The notes beneath the pieces are model-generated. The model searched no databases. It was not told where the DNA came from and saw only the letters and a list, made by a program, of their open reading frames with translations. Shown here piece after piece: positions 6,639 through 56,525 of a DNA stretch of 64,000 nucleotides. The stretch is from Xylocopilactobacillus apis. GTDB taxonomy: Bacteria > Bacillota > Bacilli > Lactobacillales > Lactobacillaceae. The stretch is taken from contig NZ_AP026801.1 in NCBI RefSeq assembly GCF_033095965.1, positions 186,001 through 250,000 of the forward strand. Direction: 5' to 3'. The first letter of the stretch is position 1, and every line of letters begins with the position of its first letter. Position numbers and translations under genes: made by a program.

Positions 6639-6655
6639 TTAAGGAGGTTAGTTCA

Positions 6656-8119: not shown

Positions 8120-8433
8120 CAGTTAGAGTGGGTCAATTAATGCACGTTTATTCAGATCAATATGATGAATATGAACGGCGCCATAATAATCTGTTTCCAG
8201 AAATGAAAAAAGCATTAAAGGAAGCAGGTGCTCATAATTATTCGATCTATTTAGATAAAAAGACTGGCAATTTGTTTGCCTATTTAGAAGTTGATGATGT
8301 AGAGAAATATGATCAAATTTCTAGTACACCAGCTTGTAAAAAATGGTGGGAATATATGGAACCTTTGATGGATACAAATCCAGATAAAAGCCCAGTAACT
8401 ATAGATTTAAAAGAAGTATTTCATTTAGATTAA
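8116..8433 (+). CDS. rhaM: L-rhamnose mutarotase
   Basis: Interconverts the alpha and beta anomers of L-rhamnose to feed the isomerase. The 105-residue length and the RhaM/RhaU pattern are clear: Y[11 protein letters not shown] near residues 18-30, N-Y-S-I-Y-L-D near 42-48, and [12 protein letters not shown] near 75-86. The ATG lies in ATGA shared with the rhaB stop, with AGGAGGAAAAG just upstream, so the two genes are translationally coupled. Confidence 0.95.
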
Positions 8434-8443
8434 GGAGATAAAA

Positions 8444-9709
8444 ATGACAACAGAAAAAAATATTGAAGAAGCTTATCAATTAGCAAAAGAACGTTATGCA
8501 GAGATTGGTGTTGATACAGATGCAGCAATGGATGCATTAAAAAATATTAAATTATCCATTCATTCATGGGAAGGTGACGATATTCATGGATTTGTTAACC
8601 CTGATCAAGAATTAACTGGAGGAATTGGTGTTAGCGGAAATTATCCTGGTATTGCTCGGACTCCTGATGAACTTACATCAGATTTACATGAGGCCCTTTC
8701 TTTAATTCCTGGATCACATAAAGTGCAGTTACACACTCTTTATGCAGTATCAGATAGAAAGAAAGATTTTAATGAAATTGGTCCTGAAGATTTTCAGTAC
8801 TGGGTTGATTGGGCAAAACAGGAACATATTGGGTTGGATATGAATCCAACATTCTTCTCTCACCCAATGGTTAAGGAGAACTTTACTCTAGCTAGTCCAG
8901 AAAAATCAGTGCGTGATTACTGGATTGAAGTTGGTAAAAAGTCACGTGAAATTTCTAATTTCTTTGGGAAAGAATTAGGACAAAAGTCTGTCAATAACTT
9001 CTGGATTCCTGATGGATTTAAAGACAATCCAATTGATAAAGCAACACCACGCTTACGCCTAATTGATTCATTAGATGAAATTTTTGCTGAAAAATATGAT
9101 GAAAATAATACAATTGAGGCTGTTGAAGGTAAGTTATTCGGAACGGGTATTGAGTCTTATACTGTAGGTTCACATTTATTTTATAATAATTATGCTATTA
9201 GCCGTGGTAAGTTGTGGACAATTGACGCAGGTCATTGGCATCCAACTGAAGATGTTTCAGATAAGTTTTCAGCATTCTTACCATTTGGTAAGGGCTTAAT
9301 GCTGCACGTTTCTCGTCCAGTACGTTGGGATAGTGATCACGTAGTAATTCTAGACGATGCTTTAGTTCGGATCACTCGTTCTTTGGTTCGTGATAATGAG
9401 TTAGACAAAACTAATATTGGATTAGACTTCTTTGATGCTACGATTAATAGGGTTAGTGCTTGGGTTATTGGATCTCGTGCCACTCAGAAAGCTTTATTAC
9501 AAGCTTTATTAGCTCCTATTTCTGATTTGAAGAAGGCAGAATTGAATTATGATTATACTACTCGTTTAGCAGTAACTGAAGAATTAAAATCTTATCCTTT
9601 TGGTGCCGTTTGGGATGAATTCTGTCTGCAAAATAACGTTCCAGTTGGTACAGATTGGTTAAATAATATCCATCAATATGAAAAAGATGTACAGTTTAAA
9701 CGTAATTAA
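8444..9709 (+). CDS. rhaA: L-rhamnose isomerase
   Basis: Cytoplasmic Mn/Zn-dependent aldose-ketose isomerase converting L-rhamnose to L-rhamnulose. The 421-residue protein shows the family opening (K-L-S-I-H-S-W-E-G-D-D-I-H-G-F) and the metal-site region I-D-A-G-H-W-H-P-T-E-D-V-S-D-K. The substrate region H-V-S-R-P-V-R-W-D-S-D-H-V follows. The ATG follows AAGGAGATAAAA 10 bases after rhaM. The order kinase-mutarotase-isomerase-aldolase is a common arrangement in lactic acid bacteria. Confidence 0.96.
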   Translation: MTTEKNIEEAYQLAKERYAEIGVDTDAAMDALKNIKLSIHSWEGDDIHGFVNPDQELTGGIGVSGNYPGIARTPDELTSDLHEALSLIPGSHKVQLHTLYAVSDRKKDFNEIGPEDFQYWVDWAKQEHIGLDMNPTFFSHPMVKENFTLASPEKSVRDYWIEVGKKSREISNFFGKELGQKSVNNFWIPDGFKDNPIDKATPRLRLIDSLDEIFAEKYDENNTIEAVEGKLFGTGIESYTVGSHLFYNNYAISRGKLWTIDAGHWHPTEDVSDKFSAFLPFGKGLMLHVSRPVRWDSDHVVILDDALVRITRSLVRDNELDKTNIGLDFFDATINRVSAWVIGSRATQKALLQALLAPISDLKKAELNYDYTTRLAVTEELKSYPFGAVWDEFCLQNNVPVGTDWLNNIHQYEKDVQFKRN

Positions 9710-9729
9710 TTAAAGGAGTTTATATAATA

Positions 9730-10545
9730 TTGAGTTATTTTATTGATTCAAAACACGTCAAAAAAATTTGTTCGATCACTAATGCTTCATATCAGCACGG
9801 TTGGGATGAAAGAAACGGCGGTAATGTTTCTTTGCGCTTAACAAGCAAAAACTTAGAAGAATTTAGTGATGTAAGTGAAGTTCAAGGAGTTGTAAAACTT
9901 GGTTTTAATGCAGAGAAGTTGGCAGGTCAATATTTCTTAGTTACTGGTACTGGTCGTTATTTTAGAAATGTGATTGAACAACCAAAACTTGATTTAGGAT
10001 TAGTTAGAATTTCTAAAGACGGACAAAAAGGTGAGATAATGTGGGGATTTGAAGATGGAGGTAAGCCAACATCGGAATTTCCGAGTCATTTAATGTCACA
10101 CATTGCGCGATTAAAGTTTGATTCCAGTCAAAGAGTTGTAATGCACTGTCATCCAACCAATGTTATTGCATTGTCATTTACTCAGGATTTAGATGAACGT
10201 CATTGGTCACGCTTGTTATGGAAAATGCAAGCAGAATCGTTGGTCGTTTTTCCAGAGGGCGTAGGTTTGATTCCATATATGACTCCAGGAACTAATGAAA
10301 TTGGTATTGAAACTTCAAAAAAGATGCAAGATTTTAAGACTGTTATTTGGCCTCATCACGGAATATTTGGAGTAGGATCAAGTTTAGATGAAGCTTTTGG
10401 CTTGATTGAAACGGTCGAAAAAGCAGCAAATATTTATTCCCAGATATGTGCCCAGGGTGGGGAAATTAAGCAAGAAATAACAGATGAGCAATTAAGAAAC
10501 TTGGCCAAGGCATTTGGTGTTACACCGAATCCAGAGTTTCTGTAA
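9730..10545 (+). CDS. rhaD: Rhamnulose-1-phosphate aldolase
   Basis: Class II zinc aldolase that cleaves L-rhamnulose-1-phosphate to dihydroxyacetone phosphate and L-lactaldehyde. Residues corresponding to the catalytic and zinc site of the E. coli enzyme are all in place: Glu116, His139, His141 (M-H-C-H-P) and His210 (P-H-H-G). The protein has 271 residues, the family length. It starts at TTG, with AAGGAG 11 bases upstream and no better-placed ATG. It is the last gene of the rha operon and is followed by an intrinsic terminator. Confidence 0.94.
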   Translation: MSYFIDSKHVKKICSITNASYQHGWDERNGGNVSLRLTSKNLEEFSDVSEVQGVVKLGFNAEKLAGQYFLVTGTGRYFRNVIEQPKLDLGLVRISKDGQKGEIMWGFEDGGKPTSEFPSHLMSHIARLKFDSSQRVVMHCHPTNVIALSFTQDLDERHWSRLLWKMQAESLVVFPEGVGLIPYMTPGTNEIGIETSKKMQDFKTVIWPHHGIFGVGSSLDEAFGLIETVEKAANIYSQICAQGGEIKQEITDEQLRNLAKAFGVTPNPEFL

Positions 10546-10573
10546 GACAAGTAATTATTAGAAAATATTTATG

Positions 10574-10605
10574 TCGTAAAATCATTTTGATTTTACGATT
10601 TTTTT
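10574..10605 (+). terminator. Intrinsic terminator of the rhamnose operon
   Basis: TCGTAAAATCA and TGATTTTACGA form an 11-bp perfect stem with a 3-base loop, followed by seven T. Confidence 0.9.
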
Positions 10606-10660
10606 GTTTAAATAAAAAAGCTCTTTTAAATAATATATTTAGGTGAGCTTTTAAAAGTTA

Positions 10661-10879
10661 TTAATTTTTTCTTTGAAGACGGGCACTTTTTAAAATGGCA
10701 CGTCGTTTTTGAGGATCAAACATTTGATCAATTTTTAATAAGCGGTAAAGGGCAAAAAGAATCACAACCACTTGTAAGATTAATGTATAGATATTCTTGA
10801 CATAAGTGGCAAGAATACTAACGAGAATTACCATGATGCCCCAGAAAATATAAGTATTGCGCCGTTTTGTATTATCCAT
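10661..10879 (-). CDS. Small membrane protein of unknown function
   Basis: A 72-residue protein with two hydrophobic helices (about residues 11-27 and 31-47) and a basic C-terminal tail (D-P-Q-K-R-R-A-I-L-K). I do not recognise a family. The ATG is preceded by AAAGAGGTAC, and a weak A/T-flanked hairpin (GAGCTTTTTT side near 10616) may end it on the minus strand. It is transcribed away from the XRE regulator at 11009. Confidence 0.6.
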   Translation of the reverse strand: MDNTKRRNTYIFWGIMVILVSILATYVKNIYTLILQVVVILFALYRLLKIDQMFDPQKRRAILKSARLQRKN

Positions 10880-30309: not shown

Positions 30310-31107
30310 TTGATTAAAAAAATTATCAAACTCAGTCAAAAAACTGACAATGTTAAATACGGGATTATTGCAGCTTATCTATTATACATGATCCCAGTTT
30401 GTGTCTCGATGTCACTAGCGCATGCGGGTTCGATTTATAATGGAGTTTTTCAGGTTATTAACTTCATTACCATGTTTGCCTTTTGGCTTTTTGCCGTTGT
30501 TTTAGGGCGGTTGTCAGGAGTTTCGCAAGGATATAGCGGTTATTTTGTGATTCTTAGTGTCTGGGTCTATCAGAAATTTTCTTTTCTAACTGGTCATCAA
30601 GTCCTTTTTATTACATTATTTGTGATTGGGACTTTCTGGCTGATTTATGAACTTTTAAGAGCATTTCTATATTCTTCGACGCTAGCACGCATCGATCCAA
30701 AAGCATTAACCTACAACATTAGCGGTAATTTGCTTTTCTTTTTGGTTAGTTATTTTATGAGCTTAGCACCTTCAGCAAGTTTAACTTATCAAACGGGCAA
30801 TGGTGCTGAATCGCTCTTAATTTTCATTTACTACTTTCTGCATGTATTAGGGATTGCAGCTGTTGGATTTAGTATTTGGTTCTATCTCTATAATTTGAGA
30901 AAAAGAGCCAATCGTTCAACGATTTGGGGAAATTCATTTTTAATCGTGTCGAGTGTGTTATTTACTTTTCTATTCTTTTTATTCACTAATTTAGTGTGGT
31001 CAGCTTTATTCTATTATGTGGTGGCTTTGATGCCGCTTGGATGTGTGTTAATTATTCCAATTAACATTAATAAGGATTCGCTAAAGAACCATGATCTAGC
31101 GATCTAA
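30310..31107 (+). CDS. Multi-spanning membrane protein of unknown function
   Basis: A 265-residue protein with about seven or eight hydrophobic helices and short basic loops. I recognise no family. TTG start, with AGGAG 9 bases upstream. It is divergent from the PAP2 gene (48-base gap), and its 3' end overlaps that of the response regulator gene by 12 bases tail to tail, so antisense transcription is possible there. Confidence 0.65.
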   Translation: MIKKIIKLSQKTDNVKYGIIAAYLLYMIPVCVSMSLAHAGSIYNGVFQVINFITMFAFWLFAVVLGRLSGVSQGYSGYFVILSVWVYQKFSFLTGHQVLFITLFVIGTFWLIYELLRAFLYSSTLARIDPKALTYNISGNLLFFLVSYFMSLAPSASLTYQTGNGAESLLIFIYYFLHVLGIAAVGFSIWFYLYNLRKRANRSTIWGNSFLIVSSVLFTFLFFLFTNLVWSALFYYVVALMPLGCVLIIPININKDSLKNHDLAI

Positions 31108-31800
31108 TAGAGCCTTGAGTTTTCTTCTGGAAACTAAGGCTTTTTCTTCGTTTGCAAAATGAACAGTCAAATTCTTCTTGTCTACTTCAATGACGTTATC
31201 CAGATTAATCAAGAAAGACTTATGGCAGCGATATAATCGATCATCTAACTTTTCCAAATCAGATAATTTACCCATAAATTCAGTTCTTCTTTTTTTGGAA
31301 ATTAAAATTACCTGATGAGGTTTATTAGAGGTTTCAAAGTACAAAATATCCGAAAAAGGAATTTTAATTTTGCGGGCTTTGTTTTCAAAGATAAAAGGGT
31401 CATCAAGTTCTTGATCATTTTGTTTTGAACGAACATATTCAAGGCTCTCTTTGATTCTGGTTTCAAATTGCGGATCGGTCTTTGAAATAAAATCCAGAGC
31501 ACTGACTTTATAAGAATAGGTGAGAGTTGCAAATTCTAAATGGCTTGTAACAAAAACAATTGCACCCACCTCATCTTTTTCACGAATTGCTTTGGCTACA
31601 TCGAGTCCTTTTTTAGGCTCGTTTTTGATATCGACGTCTAGAAAATAAAGATTACAGGGATCCTGACTTTCAATACAGTCGATCAGATTATTTGGCTTGC
31701 CGGTCGCAAATAAATGGTCGATCTTGAAGTTAAAATTATTAATAATGTTTTCAAGTGACTTTCTTTGGAATAAGTCGTCTTCTAAGATAAAAATGTTCAT
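31096..31800 (-). CDS. LytTR-type response regulator
   Basis: A 234-residue regulator of the AgrA/ComE/BlpR class. The receiver domain (1-120) has acidic pocket residues Asp8-Asp9 and phosphoacceptor Asp55 (Y-F-L-D-V-D). The LytTR DNA-binding domain covers about 135-234 (Y-F-E-T-S-N-K-P-H-Q-V, then H-K-S-F-L-I-N-L-D-N-V). Such proteins bind pairs of direct repeats spaced 21 bp, and a pair of that spacing lies upstream of the small-protein genes at 34406-34434. It overlaps the kinase stop by 4 bases. Confidence 0.93.
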   Translation of the reverse strand: MNIFILEDDLFQRKSLENIINNFNFKIDHLFATGKPNNLIDCIESQDPCNLYFLDVDIKNEPKKGLDVAKAIREKDEVGAIVFVTSHLEFATLTYSYKVSALDFISKTDPQFETRIKESLEYVRSKQNDQELDDPFIFENKARKIKIPFSDILYFETSNKPHQVILISKKRRTEFMGKLSDLEKLDDRLYRCHKSFLINLDNVIEVDKKNLTVHFANEEKALVSRRKLKALLDR

Positions 31801-33086
31801 AGCTGTTCTTCGTTAATTGAGATAATTTGCGTAAAAGAGTTATTGCTAACCTCGGTATCAAGTTCGACAAAATCATAGGAATCAACGATTTTCTTAAGGT
31901 TATAAAGACCAATCCCTTGATGATTCTTCTTGGTAGAAAAGTTAGCATTGAATATTTTACCAAGCGGAATATTTGTTTCGTTAGTATTGTTTTGGATAAC
32001 TAACATCAAAGTTTCGTCTTTTTTAAATAAAGCAAGTTTGAGCATTGGTTCAGCGGTCTTTTTTGCTTCTTCTGTGGCGTTATCGATTAAGATGGAAATC
32101 ATGCGGACGAGATCAATCAAGTCGACTTCTAAATCATCGATTACTTCTTCAATTTCTAGTTCAACTTGAATGTGATCTTTTTTGGCTTCTGTTAATTTCC
32201 AATAAAGGACGCTTTTAAGGGCTGAATTTTTGACGTTAGAAAGGTCACTAAAATCAACGGCAGTCGTTAAATCCATGGAAGACGAATTTTCCATTTCACC
32301 ATATATTTGACGGATTTCTGTTATGTCACCAGCTTTAATACTAGATTTAAGTGTTAGAAAAATATTTAAATAATCGTGACGAAATCCACGTAAAGTTTGA
32401 TACATCGCTTCGATTTCTGAGGTATAAGAACCCAGCTGCTGAATCTGTTTGTCTTTAATTTCTTGTAGTTCGTGTTGGAAATATCGATCAATTTTCTGAC
32501 TGATAAAAGTTTCGATTCCAAAGAAAATAAAAATTAAAAAGAAGACAAGATAGCGGCTGGAATCAATATCTTGGCGGTTATAGTAAAACTCGTAGAAATA
32601 AACGCCTAAGAAAATTATAAAAATTAAAGAAATGATGATGTTTAAAGGACTAATAATTTTCTTTTGAATGTATTCATTATTTCTATTAAGTAAACGCCAG
32701 TCAATACGATAGATTTTGGTGACAATGTAATGAAGAAAGATTGGTAAGATTAAAGAGATAATCGTAAAAATATCATTATATTCTTTGAAAACTTGGTCGG
32801 ACACGAAAATCATAAAGGTCTGTTCAACGAAGTTAGTAAGAATTAATGCAACAGAAGCTGAATACACAGAGAGAAATATTGATTGACTGATTGAAAACTT
32901 TTTGAGTAAAGAATAGACGAAGAAGAATGGGATAATCATGAATACAGATAAGCGAGTCAAGAACGCAAAGCATGCGAAAAAGTAAAGGACAGAATAAGCA
33001 AAACCAAATAAACTGATTTTTCGAGCTACTGAATAATAGATTCCCCAAAGCAATAAAACTTGGGTAAAAGCAATAACTAGGTGCAT
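31797..33086 (-). CDS. AgrC/ComD-type (HPK10-like) sensor histidine kinase
   Basis: A 429-residue membrane sensor. Six to seven hydrophobic helices fill residues 1-195. The phosphoacceptor His237 lies in F-R-H-D-Y-L-N. The ATP-binding domain has N-box L-I-D-N-A-T-E-E-A and G-box G-I-G-L-Y-N-L-K. Kinases of this class usually detect secreted peptides. The start is the ATG at 33086, preceded by GACGGAGAAAAT; an in-frame ATG at 33122 would overlap the preceding small gene. That gene, P1, ends only 16 bases upstream, so signal candidate and sensor appear co-transcribed. Confidence 0.93.
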   Translation of the reverse strand: MHLVIAFTQVLLLWGIYYSVARKISLFGFAYSVLYFFACFAFLTRLSVFMIIPFFFVYSLLKKFSISQSIFLSVYSASVALILTNFVEQTFMIFVSDQVFKEYNDIFTIISLILPIFLHYIVTKIYRIDWRLLNRNNEYIQKKIISPLNIIISLIFIIFLGVYFYEFYYNRQDIDSSRYLVFFLIFIFFGIETFISQKIDRYFQHELQEIKDKQIQQLGSYTSEIEAMYQTLRGFRHDYLNIFLTLKSSIKAGDITEIRQIYGEMENSSSMDLTTAVDFSDLSNVKNSALKSVLYWKLTEAKKDHIQVELEIEEVIDDLEVDLIDLVRMISILIDNATEEAKKTAEPMLKLALFKKDETLMLVIQNNTNETNIPLGKIFNANFSTKKNHQGIGLYNLKKIVDSYDFVELDTEVSNNSFTQIISINEEQL

Positions 33087-33102
33087 ATTTTCTCCGTCAA
33101 AA

Positions 33103-33372
33103 TTATTTTTTAAATACTTCAATTGGGTGTCGATATTTGTTGCTGTGTTCTACTGCATATCGGGCAACTTCATTGTAGCTTTCGTGTTTTTTACTGTGGT
33201 AGCCGCAATTTTTATCAAGGCATTTCCAATAGTAATATTTAGCGGGTTTAACCATACTGAAGCGAAAATCATTTCCATAAATTAAATTGGAAGACATCTG
33301 AGGTTCTGCTTCATAAAATAAGAATAGTAATAACAAAATTTTTAAAATGATTTTTATTAATTTTTTTGACAT
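33103..33372 (-). CDS. Small secreted or membrane-anchored C2H3-motif protein P1
   Basis: An 89-residue protein of no family known to me. It begins with a basic residue cluster and a strongly hydrophobic segment (about 5-19), followed by a short polar linker. Residues 49-88 form a conserved module: W-K-C-L-D-K-N-C-G-Y, K-K-H-E-S-Y, A-R-Y-A-V-E-H-S and Y-R-H. Cys51, Cys56, His63, His76 and His82 keep exactly the spacing seen in the three paralogues. No double-glycine leader and no clear signal peptidase site. It sits just before the kinase gene. Confidence 0.75.
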   Translation of the reverse strand: MSKKLIKIILKILLLLFLFYEAEPQMSSNLIYGNDFRFSMVKPAKYYYWKCLDKNCGYHSKKHESYNEVARYAVEHSNKYRHPIEVFKK

Positions 33373-33380
33373 ACAACCCT

Positions 33381-33668
33381 TTATTTTTTGAATACTTCAA
33401 CTGGATGTATATATTTGTAGCTGTGATCTAGTGCGTATCGAGAAGACTCTAGGTAACCTTCGTGTTTTTTGCTACGGTAACCGCAATTTTTATCACGGCA
33501 TTTCCAATAGTAATATTTAGCAGGTTTAACCATACTGAAGCGAAAATCATTTCCATCAATTAAATTAGAAGACATATCAGGTTCTACTTCGTAAACTAAG
33601 AATAGTAATAACGAAATTTTAAAAATGATTTTTATTATTTTTTTGACATTTAAAATTAAATTTAACAC
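33381..33668 (-). CDS. Small C2H3-motif protein P2, damaged start region
   Basis: Closest paralogue of P1, from a recent tandem duplication: much of the coding region is nearly identical at the DNA level. Cys57, Cys62, His69, His82 and His88 (numbering from the TTG at 33668) conserve the module. The original start corresponds to ATGTCAAAAAAA. Here one T is missing after the A run (plus-strand position 33637/33638), so that ATG now meets a stop after M-S-K-K. The remaining frame is open up to a TTG without a ribosome binding site. It may be poorly expressed or decaying, although the mature part is intact. Confidence 0.6.
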   Translation of the reverse strand: MLNLILNVKKIIKIIFKISLLLFLVYEVEPDMSSNLIDGNDFRFSMVKPAKYYYWKCRDKNCGYRSKKHEGYLESSRYALDHSYKYIHPVEVFKK

Positions 33669-33684
33669 AACAATTTATTAAGAT

Positions 33685-33720
33685 CAAAAAAATCACCATC
33701 TAATCGAGGTGATTTTAAAA
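33685..33720 (-). terminator. Terminator or attenuator between P3 and P2
   Basis: On the minus strand AAAATCACC and GGTGATTTTTTT form a stem with a 10-base loop and a T run. It splits P4-P3 from P2-P1-kinase-regulator, so the second group depends on readthrough or on its own promoter, which I could not identify. Confidence 0.8.
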
Positions 33721-33762
33721 CTGTATAAATTTTATTTTATCGTAAAAGTACAGACACAGTGC

Positions 33763-34056
33763 CTATAATTTACCTTTGAGCAGCTTTATCTTATAAACAT
33801 GGACACCGTGCTCATAGTTTGTGCTATGAGCTAATGCGTATCTTGAAGCAGATATGTAAGAATCGTGAATATTACTCACGTATTCACAGCCTTTAGTAAG
33901 GCATTCCCACTGCCAGTAAGTTTGTTCATTTACGTCAACTTGTTTTTGAGAAACTTCTAGCTTAGGTATTTCAAAAGGATTTGTCTCGACGGGAGTTAGT
34001 GCAGCCGAATTTAAAGTACTAACTGACGATATAAAAAACATAATTTTTGTAAACAT
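33763..34056 (-). CDS. Small secreted C2H3-motif protein P3
   Basis: A 97-residue protein with a short signal-peptide-like N-terminus (M-F-T-K-I-M-F-F-I-S-S-V then S-A-A-L-T), a polar linker (about 22-45) and the conserved module: W-E-C-L-T-K-G-C-E-Y, N-I-H-D-S-Y, S-R-Y-A-L-A-H-S, Y-E-H. The metal or disulfide candidates are Cys52, Cys57, His64, His77 and His83. AAGGAGAGAGATTC precedes the ATG, a strong site. It is 17 bases after P4 in the same transcript. Confidence 0.78.
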   Translation of the reverse strand: MFTKIMFFISSVSTLNSAALTPVETNPFEIPKLEVSQKQVDVNEQTYWQWECLTKGCEYVSNIHDSYISASRYALAHSTNYEHGVHVYKIKLLKGKL

Positions 34057-34073
34057 GAATCTCTCTCCTTAAA

Positions 34074-34343
34074 CTAGGGTAATTTGACGACCTTAATGGC
34101 ATGTCGATAATTTTGACTATGAGCCACCGCATATCTACAAGCAGAAGTGTAAGAATCATGAATGTTACTTACGTATTCACAGCCTTTAGTTATACAGCTC
34201 CATTGCCATTGAGGTTCTTTTTCTGAAACAACGATTTGTGAAGCGCCAAAAGGAGTAGTTTGAGGGGACTCAATCTGGGTATGTAATTGGGTTGTACCAA
34301 ATACTCCAATTGAAGATAGGCAAAACATAAAATTTCTAAACAT
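34074..34343 (-). CDS. Small secreted C2H3-motif protein P4
   Basis: An 89-residue paralogue of P3, first gene of the cluster. The N-terminus is signal-peptide-like (M-F-R-N-F-M-F-C-L-S-S-I-G-V-F-G). The module runs from Trp48 with Cys50, Cys55, His62, His75 and His81, the same spacing as in P1-P3; an extra Cys69 occurs in S-A-C-R-Y-A. AAGGAAGG lies upstream of the ATG. The promoter region carries a 21-bp-spaced direct repeat, pointing to control by the linked LytTR regulator. Confidence 0.78.
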   Translation of the reverse strand: MFRNFMFCLSSIGVFGTTQLHTQIESPQTTPFGASQIVVSEKEPQWQWSCITKGCEYVSNIHDSYTSACRYAVAHSQNYRHAIKVVKLP

Positions 34344-34375
34344 CTAATTAACCTTCCTTTGATTCTGATACTAAA

Positions 34376-34434
34376 AATATAAGGTTAATTTCTGGATTTG
34401 GACATCAATAGTCCTAAACGGTCGAATAATTGTC
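34376..34434 (-). promoter_or_regulatory. LytTR-type direct repeats and promoter of P4-P3
   Basis: On the minus strand GACAATTA (34434-34427) and GACTATTG (34413-34406) begin exactly 21 bp apart, two helical turns. Further matches outside this core give 10 of 15 positions. A -10-like TATATT lies at 34381-34376, with only a poor -35 (GTCCAA), as expected for an activator-dependent promoter. Confidence 0.5.
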
Positions 34435-34443
34435 TCAAAAGGT

Positions 34444-34481
34444 AAAAAAAAAGAGCTGACGTTTTAACATCAACTCTTTTT
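34444..34481 (-). terminator. Intrinsic terminator after the glucosaminidase gene
   Basis: On the minus strand AAAAAGAGTTGATGTT pairs with AACGTCAGCTCTTTTT (two wobble pairs), followed by a T run. It isolates the lytic enzyme gene from the small-protein cluster. Confidence 0.8.
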
Positions 34482-35590: not shown

Positions 35591-36355
35591 TTAATTTGAT
35601 AACGAAATGTCTTTTTTGTTGAAGAAAGTATCAGCAATTAAATAGAAAATGCAGATGTAAACAAGATTTGCAGCTAGGGTAATTGCAAAGTCACTGTTAA
35701 ACTTCGTCAGATCAGTTAAATACTTGTAAGAGTAAAAAGGTGATAATCTAAAACCCCAACTATCAATTTTAATTTTTAATAACATTGCGATAACAGTCCA
35801 AATACCAGGAATAACATAATAGTAGACAATTGAAATTGCAGTTGCCATTGAGGAACTGTTAATCACTGTTGAGATCATTAAAGCAAAAGATGAGAAGAAC
35901 ACAGTTTCAAACAAGACAGTTAAAATTGCAATCCCACCTTTATTAAATACCACGTCCATTCCTGGAGCCTGTCCGAAAAATATTAATACAAAAATATAAT
36001 TAAGAATTATTGACACTAAAGTGAAAGCAGACATTAAAATAGCAATTGAAGCAAATTTAGCCATTAAAATTTTGTGCCGATCATATGGACGTGTTAAGAG
36101 AAATTTAATCGTTCCGCTAGACATTTCACGAGTAATCGTTGTCGAAGCAAAAAGAATTCCTAACAAAATAAGAAAAGAAATTGAGATTTGCATCGATGTC
36201 TCAAAAAAACTATTAATATCCCAATCATGGGATTTCGATGAGAACCGAATTATTGCAAAAAATGCTAACGTAGTGATTAACTGTAGTGTTGGAAAAGGAA
36301 TTGAAATTCCCTTGCGGCGGAAAAATTTGCGCCATTCATTTATTAGTAATTTCAT
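35591..36355 (-). CDS. ABC-2-type permease
   Basis: A 254-residue permease with six helices and the ABC-2 pattern (T-T-I-T-R-E-M-S-S-G-T-I-K-F-L-L-T-R-P before helix 3). It pairs with the ATPase encoded just upstream, whose stop it overlaps by 4 bases (ATGA). The pair resembles BcrA/BcrB-type exporters of bacitracin or lantibiotics; no regulator sits next to it, so the substrate is open. Confidence 0.85.
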   Translation of the reverse strand: MKLLINEWRKFFRRKGISIPFPTLQLITTLAFFAIIRFSSKSHDWDINSFFETSMQISISFLILLGILFASTTITREMSSGTIKFLLTRPYDRHKILMAKFASIAILMSAFTLVSIILNYIFVLIFFGQAPGMDVVFNKGGIAILTVLFETVFFSSFALMISTVINSSSMATAISIVYYYVIPGIWTVIAMLLKIKIDSWGFRLSPFYSYKYLTDLTKFNSDFAITLAANLVYICIFYLIADTFFNKKDISLSN

Positions 36356-37308
36356 TCGTTAGTTCCTTTCTGTTGATTATCCGCTGTAATGGTATTAAGG
36401 AATGAATCTTCAAGCGAACTGTGTGAAAGCTGCAGCCCTAAAAGAGGAACGTCGTTAGTAACTAAGATACGGGCAATTTCAGCTCTTTGATCGCCGTCTT
36501 CTTCATTAATAGAAACTTCAAGTCGATTAAGTTTATTAGTTACATGGTATCCTTTATCAATTAACAACGCTTCAGCGTGCTGGACGTCACTGCCGACTTC
36601 AACGTAAATAACAGAATCAGTTCGACTAAGAAAGTCGCTCATCTTACCTTCATAAATTTTTTGACCTTTATTTATAATGAAAAGATCATTAACTACATCT
36701 TGAATTTCTGAAAGAATATGACTTGAAATAATGATACTGTTGCCCTGTTGGACAAAGTTTTTCATTAAATCTCGGAAGTCTTTCATTCCCTGAGGATCAA
36801 GTCCGTTCATTGGTTCATCTAAAAGTAAAACTTTTGGATTATGCATTGTTGCATTAGCAACACCCAATCGCTGGCGCATTCCAAGTGAATAGCCTTTAAC
36901 TTTCTTCTTTTCTGCCCCTTTAAGACCAGTATTAGCAAGATCCTGCATTAATTCTTCATTAGAAATATCCTTGCGGCTCATGTCGGCAAAAATCCGCAGA
37001 TTTTGTAATCCCGTCATATAGTTATAAAATTCAGGACTTTCAATGATGGTTCCAATATTAAAAGCGGCTTTTTCAAAATTCTTCTTAGTATCATGACCGC
37101 AAACTTGAACCGATCCACTGGTTTGGTGCATTAAACCAGTAATGATTCTTAAAAGCGTTGTTTTACCAGCACCGTTAGGTCCTAAAAAGCCTAAAATTCG
37201 GCCTGGTGCAACTTTAAAAGAAATATCGTTAAGAATTTGATTATTATGAATCTTCTTAGACACATTATTTACTTCAACAAGGTAGTTGGTATTTTCCAAT
37301 TTTCCCAC
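36352..37308 (-). CDS. BcrA-like ABC exporter ATPase
   Basis: A 318-residue ATPase with Walker A G-P-N-G-A-G-K-T, signature Y-S-L-G-M-R-Q-R, Walker B L-L-L-D-E-P-M-N-G-L-D-P and switch S-S-H. A C-terminal extension of about 90 residues is typical of drug-export ATPases. It starts with GTG at 37308; a TTG three codons later is an equally weak alternative, as no strong ribosome binding site is visible. It lies 3 bases after queT. Confidence 0.9.
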   Translation of the reverse strand: MGKLENTNYLVEVNNVSKKIHNNQILNDISFKVAPGRILGFLGPNGAGKTTLLRIITGLMHQTSGSVQVCGHDTKKNFEKAAFNIGTIIESPEFYNYMTGLQNLRIFADMSRKDISNEELMQDLANTGLKGAEKKKVKGYSLGMRQRLGVANATMHNPKVLLLDEPMNGLDPQGMKDFRDLMKNFVQQGNSIIISSHILSEIQDVVNDLFIINKGQKIYEGKMSDFLSRTDSVIYVEVGSDVQHAEALLIDKGYHVTNKLNRLEVSINEEDGDQRAEIARILVTNDVPLLGLQLSHSSLEDSFLNTITADNQQKGTNE

Positions 37309-50445: not shown

Positions 50446-50548
50446 AGTCAAGTGCGATTTTTAGAGCAGTTTTTTTTTAATTGTGAAAATGAAAGTGTTA
50501 TAAAATAGATATAATAATTATAGACATTTTTGATTGGAGAGGAGTATC

Positions 50549-52315
50549 TTGAAAAAGGTTAAAAGTTTTCCTCTATTTTTAATAATAGCGTTAGTCTTTG
50601 TAGTTAACTTTAGCTCAGTAAATGCTGACATTACTAATGTATCAGTAACACCACAAATTGATTCTGGTGATACAGATAAATTTGAAATGGTTGTAAAACC
50701 GGGTGAGAAACGAACCCTGACAATTGCATTTACAAATTTTGGGTCAGCTGTTGAGAGATTGACGATTCAGCCTACTAACGCGCAAACAGACGCAACGGGT
50801 AATTTTGTCTATAATGAGGTTATAAAAAAGGGGACTGATGGTCTTCAGGCAGCATTTGCTGATATGACATCAAAAAAGACAATAACATTACAGCCGCAAC
50901 AGTCAAAGACTGAGACTTTAACAGTAAGTACTCCTAATGATCGTTTTGATGGAGTCATTTATGGCGGCCTAAATATTTATAGTGTTAATGCTGACGGAGG
51001 ACATTTAAACGGGGAAAGTACGCCGATTCCAGTTATTATTACCCAAACGAATGAAAATGTTCCAGGTAACGGTAAAGTTACAGGAATTGAGGCACAGGCA
51101 ATCTCATATCAGCCCAATATTGTTATTAATTTAGTTAATAATAAACCTGGTGAGGCTCGAAATGTTTCTTATAATTTGATGATCCAGCGAAAAGGGATGT
51201 TCAGCTTTCTAGGGTTTAATGGAAGAAAAGTACCTGTTTATCAGTCCGATTTAACCATCGCTCCTAATTCGACACTACCAATTCCGGTTAATTTTAAGCA
51301 GCAGCCGTTAAAAGCAGGAGAATATATGGTAACGGGCAGTTTTACCGTTAATGGTAAAACTCATAAAGTTAATGAGACGTATAAACTTAGTAAATCTGAT
51401 GTTGAAAAAGTTAATAAGCAGTCTAAAGGCTTGATTTATGATAAAACTTGGATTTTTGTACTTGTTATTATTGGCTTAATTATTTTAATTGGAATTGTAA
51501 TTTTCTTAATTGTTAGACAAATTCGTTATAATAGAAGAGAAGAAAATAATCGCTTGGTTGCTGAATCTGATAAGATTTTGAAATCTGAACAAACTCAAGA
51601 GTCAAAAAGCAGTTCTAAATCTACACCTCCTCAATACGGACAGAGTAATGTTCAAAACAATCAGCGGGGGACTAATCAAAATCCTTATCAAGGACAGGCA
51701 CCAAATTCATATCAGAATTCGGGACAAATGCCATACAATCAGCCATTAAATTATCAAAATCCTTATCCGAATAATGGGAATTTTCAACAAAATAATTCAA
51801 TGGCTCCAAATCAAAGGCAAAATCAACCAATTAATAATCAGTCAATTCCAAATTATAATAATCCGTCTCCTTCAATGGGTCAAAACGCTAATCAAGGACA
51901 ATTTTCTAATGGTCGTCCGCAACAGGTTAATCCAAATTATGGCAACCCGCAAAATCAAGGACAGCCTCCGGTTTACGGATCTTATCCAAATCAGCAGGCA
52001 GGAATGGTTCAGCCTAATACTTCACAAAATAATTTTAGACCTAATCAAAGTGGACCAAATAATTTTGTTCAGCCGGTTAATGGGAACAATGTAAATCCAT
52101 TGCCAAATCAATATTATGGTCAAACGCCTAATAATCTAAATTCTCAACAGATGAATAATAATAGTTTAAATGGACAAGGGCCTGGTTTAACACAAAATCA
52201 AAACTTTGGGAATCAACCGAAGCCCAATTCAACAAATAATAGTGAAGAGTCTAGTAATCAGCAAGATTCTGACTGGGATCAAATTTCATTGGATGATCTT
52301 ATGAAAAAGCACTAA
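50549..52315 (+). CDS. DUF916/DUF3324 WxL-binding protein with long N/Q/P-rich tail
   Basis: A 588-residue protein. Signal peptide (1-26), DUF916 domain (about 30-150), DUF3324 domain (about 160-290), one transmembrane helix (about 301-325), then R-Q-I-R-Y-N-R-R-E-E and a 262-residue tail. The tail is rich in Asn, Gln, Pro, Gly and Tyr (repeats such as N-Q-N-P-Y-Q-G-Q) and ends with an acidic segment D-W-D-Q-I-S-L-D-D-L. DUF916/DUF3324 proteins anchor WxL proteins to the wall and normally stop soon after the helix, so the tail is unusual. TTG start behind GAGAGGAG. Confidence 0.88.
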   Translation: MKKVKSFPLFLIIALVFVVNFSSVNADITNVSVTPQIDSGDTDKFEMVVKPGEKRTLTIAFTNFGSAVERLTIQPTNAQTDATGNFVYNEVIKKGTDGLQAAFADMTSKKTITLQPQQSKTETLTVSTPNDRFDGVIYGGLNIYSVNADGGHLNGESTPIPVIITQTNENVPGNGKVTGIEAQAISYQPNIVINLVNNKPGEARNVSYNLMIQRKGMFSFLGFNGRKVPVYQSDLTIAPNSTLPIPVNFKQQPLKAGEYMVTGSFTVNGKTHKVNETYKLSKSDVEKVNKQSKGLIYDKTWIFVLVIIGLIILIGIVIFLIVRQIRYNRREENNRLVAESDKILKSEQTQESKSSSKSTPPQYGQSNVQNNQRGTNQNPYQGQAPNSYQNSGQMPYNQPLNYQNPYPNNGNFQQNNSMAPNQRQNQPINNQSIPNYNNPSPSMGQNANQGQFSNGRPQQVNPNYGNPQNQGQPPVYGSYPNQQAGMVQPNTSQNNFRPNQSGPNNFVQPVNGNNVNPLPNQYYGQTPNNLNSQQMNNNSLNGQGPGLTQNQNFGNQPKPNSTNNSEESSNQQDSDWDQISLDDLMKKH

Positions 52316-52324
52316 GCCGACACC

Positions 52325-52350
52325 AAAAAGGTGCTAATTAGTGCTTTTTT
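52325..52350 (+). terminator. Probable intrinsic terminator
   Basis: AAAAAGGTGCT and AGTGCTTTTTT pair with three G-T wobbles around AATT, ending in T6. It lies between the first and second DUF916 genes. Confidence 0.5.
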
Positions 52351-52440
52351 ATGAATAAAATAACGGATAAAATGGTATAAGACGTTTACTTTTAGTAAGA
52401 TTAGTGAATGGATAATTAAAGTAATAAAAGGAGTTATATC

Positions 52441-53547
52441 TTGAAAAAGATACCCAAGTTTATTTATGTTTGTGGATTGTTATTTTTTTCTTTAATAATA
52501 TCAAATACATTAATTGTAAAAGCTGCGGATGATAACAATTTACAAGCTGTGATGCCAGAAATTTCCGTAATTACTGACGAAGAAGGATTCACTAAGAGCA
52601 ATAATAATGGTTTTTATGATATTAACTTTAAACCTGGTGAAAATATTGTTTTAGGCGCACGAATTCAAAATACAGTAAATAAAAAAATCGATGTTGAAAT
52701 TACACCTGGAACCGTGATTACTAATCAAGGGCATATAGTTTATGGGGATCAGTCAAATCAAATGATTGATAAAAGTAATAAATATCCTTTTTCAAAAATG
52801 GTAAAGAAGCAAACTGTTTCAATTGAACCAAAAGGATCTTTAGAAGTTAAAATTCCTGTCAATGTTCCAAAAGAAAAATTTAATGGGACAATTTTAGGAA
52901 ATATAGCATTTACAGTGTTAGGACAAGATGAACAGACAAAAAGCCGTAAAAGTTTAGCAACAATTACTAATGTTGTACGTCAAGCTTTAGTTGTACGTCT
53001 TCGTCAGGGATTTCAGCCAGATCCTGATTTTGAAATTGGAAATCCTTCAACTGGCGGAAGTCTAAAAGGCCCTACTTTTACGATTCCCATTCGAAACGTA
53101 GCAGCAACTTATTTTAAGGAAAATGCCGGTACAAGAGTTCATTATGTTGTGACAAAAGAAAATGATAAAAATGTTACATACACAAGTACTGATAAAAATA
53201 TTTCAATGGCTCCAAACTCTTTTTACAATGGAGTTATATCCACTAAAGGAAGAGCAATCGAGCCTGGTCAGTATAATATGAAAATCTCAATTAAATATAA
53301 AGGGAAAACTACGAGATTTTCAAAGAATTTTGTTGTAACCAAAGCACGAACAAAAAATATTAATAAAGGTTCTACACTTAAATCTAAAGAATCAAAGTCA
53401 GGGTTTAATTTTTTAATCGTAGCAATAATATTTGTTATTATTTTAATCATGCTATTTGCTCTTTACGCTGGAATGCATCGAGCACAGACAAAATCTAAAA
53501 CAAATGATCAGGGTGACCGAAGAGTAAGAAGTCGAAGTAAAAAGTGA
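52441..53547 (+). CDS. DUF916/DUF3324 cell-surface protein
   Basis: A 368-residue protein with signal peptide (1-28), DUF916 (about 35-165), DUF3324 (about 170-300), one C-terminal helix (about 320-343) and a short basic tail (R-R-V-R-S-R-S-K-K). The family hallmarks F-K-P-G-E-N and V-P-K-E-K-F-N-G-T-I-L-G are visible. TTG start, preceded by AAAGGAGTTATATC. It is likely to bind a WxL partner at the membrane-wall interface. Confidence 0.9.
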   Translation: MKKIPKFIYVCGLLFFSLIISNTLIVKAADDNNLQAVMPEISVITDEEGFTKSNNNGFYDINFKPGENIVLGARIQNTVNKKIDVEITPGTVITNQGHIVYGDQSNQMIDKSNKYPFSKMVKKQTVSIEPKGSLEVKIPVNVPKEKFNGTILGNIAFTVLGQDEQTKSRKSLATITNVVRQALVVRLRQGFQPDPDFEIGNPSTGGSLKGPTFTIPIRNVAATYFKENAGTRVHYVVTKENDKNVTYTSTDKNISMAPNSFYNGVISTKGRAIEPGQYNMKISIKYKGKTTRFSKNFVVTKARTKNINKGSTLKSKESKSGFNFLIVAIIFVIILIMLFALYAGMHRAQTKSKTNDQGDRRVRSRSKK

Positions 53548-54103
53548 TATCTTCAAAAAGAAGAAAATGATTTATAAAGAAATGAACATTTAAAACACTT
53601 GTTTAAGTTATAATAATACTAGTTGATTTCTAGATCAAAATTAAGATGAATTGCAGTCGTGGCATCTTGCAAGATGACTAAGTGGGACATTCTCGATCTG
53701 ACACAACGCATATTTTTGAATTATTCTGATGAGGATTAATTTAAAACCAATAGCTAATAGTTAGACCGGATGATGTTAACAGTCTAACATTCAATTGGAA
53801 AATTTGATGCTAGGTGATATTTGTTCTAAACAAACTGCAGGTTTAGAATCTTACTACGAAAATAGATTTTTGTATTAAGAACTGGGGAATAATGTTTATT
53901 GGAAACTGAATGCTGGGACTTCACTTGAATTCAGTGACATAATGCTGTAATAGAACAATTAAATAGTCGGAATTTGGGAATTGTTTTTAGCCATAACAAT
54001 CTTATAATCCAAAAACCAAAAAATAATTTATTAAGAACGGATCGATTAATTCTTAGACTTTAGTTATACTATTAATAGGTAAACTTTGGGTGGAAATATA
54101 ATA
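53548..54103. other. 556-base intergenic region without a convincing gene
   Basis: The longest gene-free stretch of the window. I see no reading frame with a ribosome binding site and no protein remnant. It contains a perfect 14-base palindrome, CATCTTGCAAGATG (53663-53676), and a hairpin with 7-bp arms GTTAGAC / GTCTAAC (53760-53788). Some of it reads as less AT-rich than other spacers. It may hold a long leader, an RNA or the remains of a deleted gene. A possible -10 box TATACT lies near 54065, before the WxL gene. Confidence 0.5.
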
Positions 54104-55228
54104 ATGAAAGAAAAAAGGAAAAATTTAAAATCATCTCTATCTTGTGCAGCAGTTTTAGCACTGTTTTCTCCGATGATGCTTCAAAAACCTGAATCGGTAC
54201 AGGCTCTTCCGGTGGCTTCAGCTGCGACAAATGTTGGAATTACTTTTAATGATGGTGTCCTAACATTGGTTTCTGTTCCGAATTTTGACTTTGGAGCGAA
54301 TAAGTTAGACGATACTACAAAGTTTGTTCCTTTATATGCATCTGCATCAAGTACAGTTGGTGATCCGGTGAACGGGGCATTTATGGATCAGACTAGTTCA
54401 GCATCTCCTACAAGAACTTTAAGAGATTCTACTAAATATCGATCTTTAATTGTGTCAGACAGCAGGCTTCCGATTAATAGTTCAGGAACTTATAATGGTT
54501 GGACTGTTTCAGCACACATGACTGTTGGTTCAGCTGCTTCTCTTGGATCAACTAATATTAACAGTCATGTTAGCGCTGGGGATCCAAACCCTGATGCAGG
54601 GGTAATTGGAGGAGTTGCGCAAAAGTTTGCGGCAGCAATTGAATTCGGCAACGGATTTGGTAATAGTTTAGCGATTTCATCATTAACTGGCGGTCAAGCA
54701 GGTAATTCGACTCCAGTTTCTCATCCGGCAACTTATTATAATTCTGATCCTAATATGGAGGGAAAATCTTATACTTCATCAGGAGCGCCAATAAATACTG
54801 TTTCAAGATGGACTCGGGTTGATACGGACACAACTGATGTACCAGCTACGGATAATTCAGTAAGTGGTGTTTTTGCTGGACTTTTCTTTCCGCGACTCGC
54901 AAAAACCCCAATTGCTAATAATGCAGCTCAGATAACGGCCGTTGCGAGCAGTGATCCAAATAATAATAATGTTGCTAATAATTCTCAAATCACAACAATA
55001 CCGATGGGTAATACAGATAATTATTTGTGGGGGTATCTTGGTACTCAACAGACTGCTGCTGCATCTAGTCGGCCTGATAGTGTATCAAATGGTGCATGGG
55101 CATTAGATTTTCACGATAAAGGATCGGCTATTATGTCGATGCCAAAAGCAGTCGCTTTGAATCGTCACGGTACGTATGTTTATAATATTTATTGGACTTT
55201 AACATCAGGATTTCATCAGAATCCTTGA
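54104..55228 (+). CDS. WxL-domain cell-surface protein
   Basis: A 374-residue secreted protein. The signal peptide ends near A-L-P-V-A-S-A-A. The WxL domain spans most of the rest. The first motif is G-W-T-V-S-A-H-M, a W-x-V variant of W-x-L, and the second is Y-W-T-L-T-S near the C-terminus, as in the family. A long Ser/Thr/Asn-rich centre suggests a surface-exposed region. WxL proteins bind peptidoglycan non-covalently and work with DUF916 proteins, which flank it here. ATG at 54104, 11 bases after GGGTGG; an in-frame TTG at 54086 has no site. Confidence 0.88.
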   Translation: MKEKRKNLKSSLSCAAVLALFSPMMLQKPESVQALPVASAATNVGITFNDGVLTLVSVPNFDFGANKLDDTTKFVPLYASASSTVGDPVNGAFMDQTSSASPTRTLRDSTKYRSLIVSDSRLPINSSGTYNGWTVSAHMTVGSAASLGSTNINSHVSAGDPNPDAGVIGGVAQKFAAAIEFGNGFGNSLAISSLTGGQAGNSTPVSHPATYYNSDPNMEGKSYTSSGAPINTVSRWTRVDTDTTDVPATDNSVSGVFAGLFFPRLAKTPIANNAAQITAVASSDPNNNNVANNSQITTIPMGNTDNYLWGYLGTQQTAAASSRPDSVSNGAWALDFHDKGSAIMSMPKAVALNRHGTYVYNIYWTLTSGFHQNP

Positions 55229-55255
55229 TAAAAATTATTCGATAAGTTTATAATT

Positions 55256-55287
55256 AAAATCTCCATTAGGAGGTTTTATTTTTTTTT
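55256..55287 (+). terminator. Intrinsic terminator after the WxL gene
   Basis: AAAATCTCC-ATTA-GGAGGTTTT (one G-T pair), followed by a nine-T run. Confidence 0.85.
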
Positions 55288-55343
55288 ATGATTATTTTAT
55301 GTAAATAAAATTTTGATTAGTGTTTTTAAGATACAATGGGGTT

Positions 55344-56513
55344 ATGGTAACAAAAAAAAGAAAAGATGTTTGGCTTTTAATTTTAATAATATTATCTTTT
55401 TTCTTGATAAATGACCGTGTTTCAGCTGAAACAGGGATATTTAGTGTTAAACCAATTTTTCCGGATAATCAAATTAGTCAGCAAAATGCGTATTATTTAT
55501 TAGTAAAACCAGGAGATAAACAGAATATTTCTTTTTACGTTACGAATTTGAGGAATTACACTCAGACTTTTGAAATAATGCCTGGAATGTATGTTAATAA
55601 TTCTCAAGGAGATATGGCACTTACAACAGACAAAAAAGATTTGGATCCTAGTTTGCCGGTAAATATGATGGATATGGGTGTAAAGCCCACATATCTTACA
55701 GTTCCAGCAAATCAAACAGTTAAAGTTAGTCAGGTGTACAAAATCCCTTCTGAGAAATTCAAGGGCTTAATTTATGGTGGAATTCGGGTCATTTCAGGAC
55801 TTCAAAATTCTTCAGAAATGAAAAATAGTAAAAAGTCTCGGGCTTTGATTAATACATATGCTCAAATGGATACAGGAGTTATTATGACGATGGATAAAAA
55901 TTACCCTAAAGGGAAGCTGATCGTTAAAAATGTAACCCCAAGTGCTGCTGTACCTAGACCCGTTTTTAATATTAAAATTCAAAATCCAGAAGGGACAATT
56001 ATTGATAGTCTTAATTTAAAGGCTAAAATAAAAAAAGAGGGTTTTAACGTTCCTAATACTAAAGTGTCAAAGGTGGAATTATCTAATGATTATTACGGCT
56101 ATACAGTTGCTCCTTATTCGAAGTTAAACCTAGTAATGAATATTGGCAAGACTCGGCTGCAGCCGGGTAAATATACACTCAAACTAACTGGTAAATCTCA
56201 TGGCCATAAGTTTAATCAAAAATATAATTTTATGGTATCTCAAAATATTGCAAATAAAATAAATAAAGATAATTCTCAAATTAGTGCAGATTATACATGG
56301 CTTTACTTCATCATAATTATCGGAATTATTTTAATTCTAATCGCATTTGTAATCTTTATGTATTTCTTCGGAATGAAAAAAGTTTTGCACCTGCCAGAAA
56401 CTAATAATAAAGTGCAAAGTCCAAGGTCAAGATCGACCAATGAAGTTAAAAATACAACAGAAGTTAAGCGAAATCGTTACGGGACTTCTAATGTTCCAAA
56501 ACGAAAACGATAA
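55344..56513 (+). CDS. DUF916/DUF3324 cell-surface protein (third copy)
   Basis: A 389-residue protein with signal peptide (1-28), DUF916 and DUF3324 domains (about 30-160 and 165-300), a helix at about 318-342 and a basic tail (K-R-N-R-Y-G-T-S-N-V-P-K-R-K-R). V-K-P-G-D-K and I-P-S-E-K-F-K-G-L-I-Y-G-G-I are the family marks. No properly spaced ribosome binding site precedes the ATG at 55344. A -10-like TACAAT at 55332-55337 would place the transcript start on or next to this ATG. Confidence 0.86.
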   Translation: MVTKKRKDVWLLILIILSFFLINDRVSAETGIFSVKPIFPDNQISQQNAYYLLVKPGDKQNISFYVTNLRNYTQTFEIMPGMYVNNSQGDMALTTDKKDLDPSLPVNMMDMGVKPTYLTVPANQTVKVSQVYKIPSEKFKGLIYGGIRVISGLQNSSEMKNSKKSRALINTYAQMDTGVIMTMDKNYPKGKLIVKNVTPSAAVPRPVFNIKIQNPEGTIIDSLNLKAKIKKEGFNVPNTKVSKVELSNDYYGYTVAPYSKLNLVMNIGKTRLQPGKYTLKLTGKSHGHKFNQKYNFMVSQNIANKINKDNSQISADYTWLYFIIIIGIILILIAFVIFMYFFGMKKVLHLPETNNKVQSPRSRSTNEVKNTTEVKRNRYGTSNVPKRKR

Positions 56514-56525
56514 TTAGGTTAAGAA

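Follow-up and report, generated by a model that had tools for sequence, protein, structure and literature searches.

The element described here is a six-gene cassette in a window of 64,000 nucleotides (nt) from Xylocopilactobacillus apis (NZ_AP026801.1, positions 186,001 to 250,000), part of a single-contig genome of 2,271,855 bases; coordinates are those of the window. The cassette occupies 31096..34447, lies throughout on the minus strand in the order P4-P3-P2-P1-kinase-regulator, and is probably a self-regulated bacteriocin-type locus, judging from sequence and gene context: an undescribed zinc-finger-like protein family that would be exported without an ATP-binding cassette (ABC) transporter and carry its own LytTR switch. 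An earlier reading of this DNA (the original prediction) had listed the same six open reading frames (ORFs), with the P1 stop 16 nt before the kinase and an overlap of kinase and regulator, all in agreement with the ORF list. The apparent orphan proteins P1 to P4 are here tied to a bacteriocin-like family across Lactobacillaceae, Enterococcaceae and Streptococcaceae, and the locus would represent a compact, self-regulated competition cassette acquired by one gut-symbiont species of carpenter bees.

The core of the family is a C-terminal module, C-x4-C-x6-H-x12-H-x5-H together with W-x-C, Y-A and H-S, exact in the alignment of P1, P2, P3 and P4. Written as a DNA pattern it matched four times in the window and not once in 100 shuffles, and the claim of four paralogues with invariant spacing stands as that of a single family. 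The modules are under purifying selection, because nonsynonymous divergence (dN) lies below synonymous divergence (dS) in codon comparisons: 0.14 versus 0.64 between P1 and P2, and 0.21 with saturated dS between P3 and P4. No Pfam, NCBIfam, PHROG or PDB family was matched above cut-off by P1 to P4, as expected from the original prediction, which had recognised no described family with this pattern.

Relatives were identified outside the described families. A profile of the four window proteins found nothing above chance in 398 Lactobacillaceae genomes, being dominated by the hydrophobic N-terminus and misleading at first; a module-only profile found nothing convincing in 399 genomes of the class, and automatic pattern scans from the window proteins gave no match in viral and genome contigs. 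A degenerate DNA pattern of the invariant residues matched twice in a 257 Gb genome collection, in Pilibacter termitis and Enterococcus termitis, two termite-gut Enterococcaceae whose signal-peptide proteins (107-113 amino acids, aa) carry the module at their C-terminal end; these are the nearest relatives by far (57-60 bits with a hidden Markov model, HMM, of the window proteins only). Profiles including them identified members in 13 of 395 Lactobacillales genomes (the own genome counted), 9 of 105 Enterococcaceae genomes and 11 of 247 Streptococcus genomes, the assignment of the relatives' genomes to the last two groups being taken from gene content, from the recurrence of the L102 genome and from the Listeria-labelled records. 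In the reverse direction, an Enterococcaceae-only HMM gave P1 to P4 26-32 bits (P1 31.7 bits, E 1.5e-7; P3 29.0 bits, E 1e-6; P4 26.3 bits, E 7e-6) where the top-scoring of 20,000 shuffled decoys reached 15.0. With a streptococcal-only HMM (G862 included), P1, P3 and P4 scored 20-22 bits and P2 14.2; the top decoy of as many reached 10.2. These profile comparisons establish homology of the window modules with two kinds of protein, the bacteriocin-like precursors with a double-glycine leader and the signal-peptide proteins of Enterococcaceae. Plasmids yielded no module relative, and among phages only two records matched, both of them Enterococcus DNA. These records (OR846889.1 and OR848932.1, 'Listeria phage LM 4-11-1 / LM 4-14-1') look like Enterococcaceae chromosomal DNA, contain topoisomerase, cold-shock and helicase genes and are nearly identical to genome G1031.

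The streptococcal members are precursors of 56-79 aa in which a Gly-Gly leader is followed directly by the module, as in MKKLQKDEMMQVHGG joined to AGWFWRCGKCKYKSAWH. Peptidase-C39 ABC exporters, confirmed by Pfam, lie beside four of them (loci L132, L133, L162 and L168), and an ABC ATPase with an ABC-2 permease, a pair typical for bacteriocin self-protection, stands directly downstream of the module gene in most streptococcal loci. Arrays of further Gly-Gly peptides were identified in L166, L169 and L170, and LytTR regulators in L165, L167, L168 and L169, two of these with a kinase too. These surroundings are, by gene content, a bacteriocin context; with Gly-Gly peptides beside the ABC pair, the C39 exporters and LytTR genes, the module is therefore taken as the predicted mature peptide of bacteriocin-like precursors. 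The original prediction had left a choice among ligands, inhibitors and effectors, and the context of the relatives clearly favours a bacteriocin-like effector.

The Enterococcaceae members have clear signal peptides, and an ORF of 35-62 aa with a single transmembrane (TM) segment comes next after most of their module genes. It exists in several forms: MSKKEKLISLIVLVCLVLLVTVIGY... in L125 with related forms in L126 and L131, MEQKMNETWLSRNKKEVIRFSLAVFLGFVLSFIVFTLL in L127 with related forms in L128 and L129, and another form in L137 and L136. By analogy this tiny protein would be an immunity-like partner. In L129 (4794-5259) a premature stop interrupts the module gene but not its tiny TM partner, the outcome expected when a toxin can be lost and the gene protecting against it is retained. 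The module gene of Enterococcus termitis is also flanked by WxL-like genes; a run of DUF916/WxL-like surface protein genes, recognised by reading and not by profile, occupies 50534-57086 of the window.

The predicted fold of the module is beta-beta-alpha-beta. The AlphaFold model of P4 has a module confidence (predicted local distance difference test, pLDDT) of about 92 and agrees with that of P1, the module pLDDT being about 90; P1 shows a helix at residues 3-20 and module elements at 47-51 (strand), 66-80 (helix) and 84-88 (strand). The Cys pair is placed in a beta hairpin, the helix carries His near its end and the last strand follows the final His, so that on the predicted backbone the arrangement is C2H2 zinc-finger-like (Cys pair in a hairpin, His pair at a helix end). 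Searches of the PDB by sequence and by fold found no solved relative; rows such as photosystem I PsaD and Erh1 (no E below 0.6, Z below 5) were judged chance. Among viral structures, a similar arrangement was common in small phage proteins that are uncharacterised, but no match was significant.

The spacing of the Cys pair is C-x4-C or C-x2-C across 22 modules. The second Cys (Cys2) is missing in seven streptococcal variants, each of which has also lost the last His and acquired a Cys in the final strand, whereas the last His is kept in 14 of 14 members with Cys2. Exceptions are G862 (lacking Cys2 with the His kept) and Ec823 (with an extra tail Cys). The association of Cys2 with the C-terminal Cys has a Fisher p of 0.0004, calculated with sequence relatedness ignored. 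From the joint loss of Cys2 and the last His with the new C-terminal Cys we infer a C1-C2-H2-H3 metal site in the window form, presumably for zinc, and its exchange for a disulfide between strands 1 and 3 in the seven variants. Since the first His (C-x6-H) is invariant in both forms, a functional or structural role is more likely for it than one as a ligand. The 'C2H3' label of the original prediction thus holds for five residues exact in P1 to P4, and as a metal site it is probably C2H2 plus one separate conserved His; its suggestion of metal binding is probably right, given the covariation. With its two export routes and the apparent exchange of zinc for a disulfide, the family is a natural experiment on the evolution of such peptides, and the small streptococcal forms are directly testable.

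The cassette is delimited by comparison (tblastn of flanking and cassette genes) with the three congeners G001, G002 and G003, the genus being represented by four genomes. X. apis KimC2 and X. apicola XA3 have been reported from carpenter bees (PMC10433979). On the left, HdeD, DUF1269, PAP2 and gene 30310, and on the right a muramidase, an ABC permease and an ABC ATPase, keep their order in all three, with proteins 39-86% identical to those of the window; QueT follows them in G001 only, and in G002 and G003 it sits at another place of the stretch that was fetched. P1, P3, P4, the kinase and the regulator had no tblastn match at E 1e-3 in the syntenic region of the three congeners, and a profile search found no member of the P family in their genomes. 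Flanks being syntenic and the cassette genes absent, P4-P3-P2-P1-kinase-regulator is therefore one inserted unit of about 3.3 kb, or one lost from the other three, present in one of the four species. At the site itself two congeners have a gap of only about 170-180 base pairs (bp) and G001 has about 860 bp of unrelated DNA that include the remains of a broken coding sequence (L177, 5346-6204), which suggests an insertion hot spot. The ABC genes at 35591-37308 as immunity and the upstream muramidase as effector were rejected; both are present in congeners without the cassette.

The kinase (31797..33086) is a membrane histidine kinase of the GHKL group and of AgrC/ComD/BlpH type (PF14501, E 4.8e-16), and the regulator (31096..31800) is a LytTR response regulator of AgrA/ComE/BlpR type (PF04397, E 3.2e-21); the two ORFs overlap by 4 nt. 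The kinase starts at an ATG with a GGAG ribosome site, 16 nt past the P1 stop; it may also be longer, from a TTG at 33122. No module gene was found near the closest kinases (29-35% identity, loci L079-L083), and the kinase is therefore apparently not a general companion of the module. A second LytTR region of the same genome (L078, C1:1733000-1748000; 7086-7274 and 5703-10809) comprises two HPK10-type kinases, a LytTR-type regulator, CAAX-protease-like membrane proteins and the Gly-Gly peptide MLKKLTEQQLEEIKGGKTFTQLTWFRDRKSGKYWWWF, with no C2H module gene.

Direct repeats were identified by pattern scan before P4 (34403..34443, minus strand): ACCTTTTGAG, ACAATTATTCG, ACCGTTTAGG and ACTATTGATG. 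They form four AC-N2-TT half-sites phased by 10-11 bp, that is two interleaved pairs at 21 bp start to start. The pattern ACCNTT-N15-ACCNTT, picked after sight of this site, has two matches in the window against 0.10 expected, one of them before P4, and a looser pattern has two overlapping matches there. The repeats resemble the BlpR/ComE direct-repeat element, ACCATTCAG at -90 of blpA (PMC4739721; cf. PMC5295010); the spacing of about 21 bp known from Blp/Com-type target promoters is present at P4 as a sequence pattern. A similar repeat pair precedes the streptococcal genes of L165, L167 and L170 by 118-126 nt, with a chance per gene of 0.6-2.6% by shuffling. Together with the shared cassette, the repeats uphold the functional link of P proteins and LytTR pair made in the original prediction, and the most likely wiring is from kinase to LytTR regulator to P4-P3. 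A perfect 10-bp inverted repeat (AATTAACCTT/AAGGTTAATT, 25 nt apart, 34346-34390) also spans the P4 promoter and ribosome site and may be a second regulatory site.

The cassette is probably read as two transcripts, as a terminator-like hairpin with a T run lies between P3 and P2 (33689..33716, minus strand; -11.1 kcal/mol, z -2.66). No repeats were identified before P2, so that P2-P1-kinase-regulator may be expressed separately from P4-P3. P4 (34074..34343, 89 aa) is an exported zinc-finger-like bacteriocin candidate by ORF, module alignment, AlphaFold model and HMM. P3 (33763..34056, 97 aa) has a signal peptide with a plausible cut between NSAA and LT. P1 (33103..33372, 89 aa) has a strongly hydrophobic N-terminal helix. 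P2 (33381..33668, 95 aa from GTG), the weakest gene of the set, is 87% identical to P1 in DNA and differs from it by a 1-nt deletion right after the ATG (33649), possibly a sequencing error, which puts that ATG out of frame; the sole possible start is then a GTG (33668) with no recognisable ribosome site, and P2 may be degraded, its expression being doubtful. A plausible cleavage site after the hydrophobic segment was identified only in P3 and P4, with no good one in P1 and P2, which look like uncleaved membrane anchors. The term 'secreted' of the original prediction accordingly suits P3 and P4 and is uncertain for P1 and P2.

Under the bacteriocin-type reading, P4, P3 and probably P1 (P2 maybe broken) would be precursors with a C-terminal module of about 45 residues folding as a small beta-beta-alpha-beta domain. 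The N-terminal hydrophobic segment would direct them to general export, with no ABC exporter of their own, and the module, exported from P3 and P4 or displayed at the membrane by P1 and P2, would act on competing bacteria. The AgrC/BlpH-type kinase would sense an extracellular cue, possibly a P protein, and phosphorylate the LytTR regulator, which would bind the 21-bp-spaced repeats and switch on P4-P3; killing activity, the kinase cue, direct binding by the regulator and self-protection are all presumed. A bolder proposal is less likely than not, namely a new bacteriocin class with a zinc-finger-like fold in which metal site and disulfide, and signal peptide and double-glycine leader, are exchangeable, the window bacteriocins acting also as LytTR inducers. 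To our knowledge such a fold has not been described for bacteriocins.

Several observations weigh against the bacteriocin-type reading. No member of the family is known to kill, and neither family sequences nor a zinc-binding bacteriocin were found in the literature. An immunity gene is not recognisable in the window, which also lacks a tiny TM partner (for which the cassette has no room) and an adjacent dedicated ABC pair, and anchors without a good signal-peptidase site, as in P1 and P2, are odd for secreted bacteriocins. Most streptococcal members score below 24 bits with the window-only HMM, indicating distant kinship only; the repeat pattern was chosen with hindsight, and the Fisher value ignores relatedness. 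A LytTR gene is present in 4 of 12 Streptococcus loci and in none of the checked Enterococcaceae loci, most family loci being devoid of one. This last distribution also tells against the dedicated C2H3-LytTR signalling system of the original prediction; a profile and neighbourhood search of the kind that it proposed matched no described family above cut-off, and placed the homologues mostly away from LytTR systems.

Pheromones would be another role for the P proteins, as exported kinase ligands that signal cell density, the actual outputs being other genes. The cassette joins them to an AgrC/BlpH-type kinase with no other peptide gene, AgrB or exporter, so that nothing else in it could be the ligand; the repeats at P4 would allow positive feedback, and a bacteriocin can double as inducer. 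However, known pheromones are short, unlike four divergent paralogues with a folded domain of 45 residues, the vicinity of most homologues contains no LytTR kinase, and immunity-type ABC pairs and exporters stand beside the streptococcal ones, so a purely signalling role is unlikely. Less likely again are kinase inhibitors, co-sensors or membrane-anchored self-protection tuning the cassette, above all in P1 and P2, whose uncleaved-looking anchors are encoded directly upstream of the kinase on the same strand. Such a function would supply the protection that bacteriocin loci need and that is otherwise not recognisable in the cassette, but P1 and P2 carry the module of the presumed effectors, P2 is perhaps untranslated, and the tiny TM partners of Enterococcaceae are separate genes without the module.

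Zinc scavenging or carriage by surface or secreted proteins for nutrient uptake would agree with the export signals and with a conserved, covarying Cys2His2 site. It is nevertheless very improbable: the site is gone from seven streptococcal members that otherwise retain the module, which makes a structural metal probable, no zinc transporter gene was noticed beside the examined loci, and the family is associated with C39 exporters and immunity-type ABC pairs. A relic in decay, acquired not long ago, its tandem copies degenerating and without a function today, is scarcely credible, the frame lesion near the start of P2 and the presence of the cassette in one species of four being outweighed by module dN/dS well below 1, an intact kinase and regulator and the repeats before P4.

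Apart from the cassette, overlapping short ORFs with repeats of ITPADAGNT/SPPRMRGT type were seen in L075 (10273-11001) and L082 (16758-19001), the signature of CRISPR (clustered regularly interspaced short palindromic repeats) arrays read as protein.

Among known systems, the only families matched repeatedly were DUF7848 (PF25232) and phrog_10944, uncharacterised small Cys/His proteins, always through the same Cys/His stretch. The best match to DUF7848 was copy 2 of Enterococcus termitis (E 6.3e-5, 23.5 bits, cut-off 24.5), and P1 to P4 matched the two families at E 0.005-0.2, the module reaching at most 14.9 bits against DUF7848, under that cut-off; we know of no export signal or bacteriocin context for DUF7848. 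The module resembles C2H2 zinc fingers and rubredoxin-type knuckles in its Cys pair in a hairpin (C-x4-C or C-x2-C, then G-Y) and its His pair at a helix end, but has a longer Cys-to-His spacing and an extra C-terminal beta strand, is predicted to be exported and not nucleic-acid-binding, and has no solved relative found. Pediocin-like peptides (class IIa) were rejected, as P1 to P4 have no YGNGV by reading and matched no bacteriocin model of Pfam or NCBIfam, and so was the Lactococcin 972 family, whose Pfam/NCBIfam model is not among the matches up to E 1. In the Agr system (AgrBDCA) the likeness lies in kinase and regulator, which score best against the AgrC and AgrA models, but far under the cut-offs (156 bits against NF046015, cut-off 500; 159 bits against NF046049, cut-off 400); the cassette has no AgrD-type peptide, and Agr membership of the P proteins is ruled out since the whole genome has no PF04647 match for AgrB.

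The closest parallels are bacteriocin systems. With Blp (pneumocin) and Com loci of streptococci, which encode LytTR-regulated class II bacteriocins, the window shares an HPK10-type kinase and a LytTR regulator, as in BlpRH and ComDE (PMC5295010, PMC4739721) and here identified by Pfam and NCBIfam profiles, and a direct-repeat element in the promoter, about 90-100 nt ahead of the start codon; the streptococcal homologues lie in such clusters, where Gly-Gly leaders occur together with C39 exporters and further Gly-Gly peptides. The window proteins differ in having no Gly-Gly leader, C39/ABC exporter, BlpC-like pheromone gene or known Blp immunity protein, and neither a double-glycine pheromone nor a C39 exporter was found among the ORFs read in the cassette and its flanks. 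On leader and exporter the window thus falls outside the Blp type, as far as its gene content tells. Linkage to exporter and immunity genes was seen for many streptococcal members and not in the window cassette. The absence of both leader and exporter noted in the original prediction holds for the window and does not extend to the family, as streptococcal members have both.

Class II bacteriocins are small, exported peptides of ribosomal origin that stay unmodified; the Sec-dependent ones, such as enterocin P and bacteriocin 31, are made as small signal-peptide precursors with no ABC exporter. The P proteins are like them in their putative signal-peptide precursors (a good cut site being predicted in P3 and P4 only) without an ABC exporter and, in Enterococcaceae, in the small adjacent membrane protein gene; they differ in having no sequence match and a fold and Cys/His pattern not of pediocin-like peptides. 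By analogy, the P proteins most likely work like LytTR-regulated class II bacteriocins.

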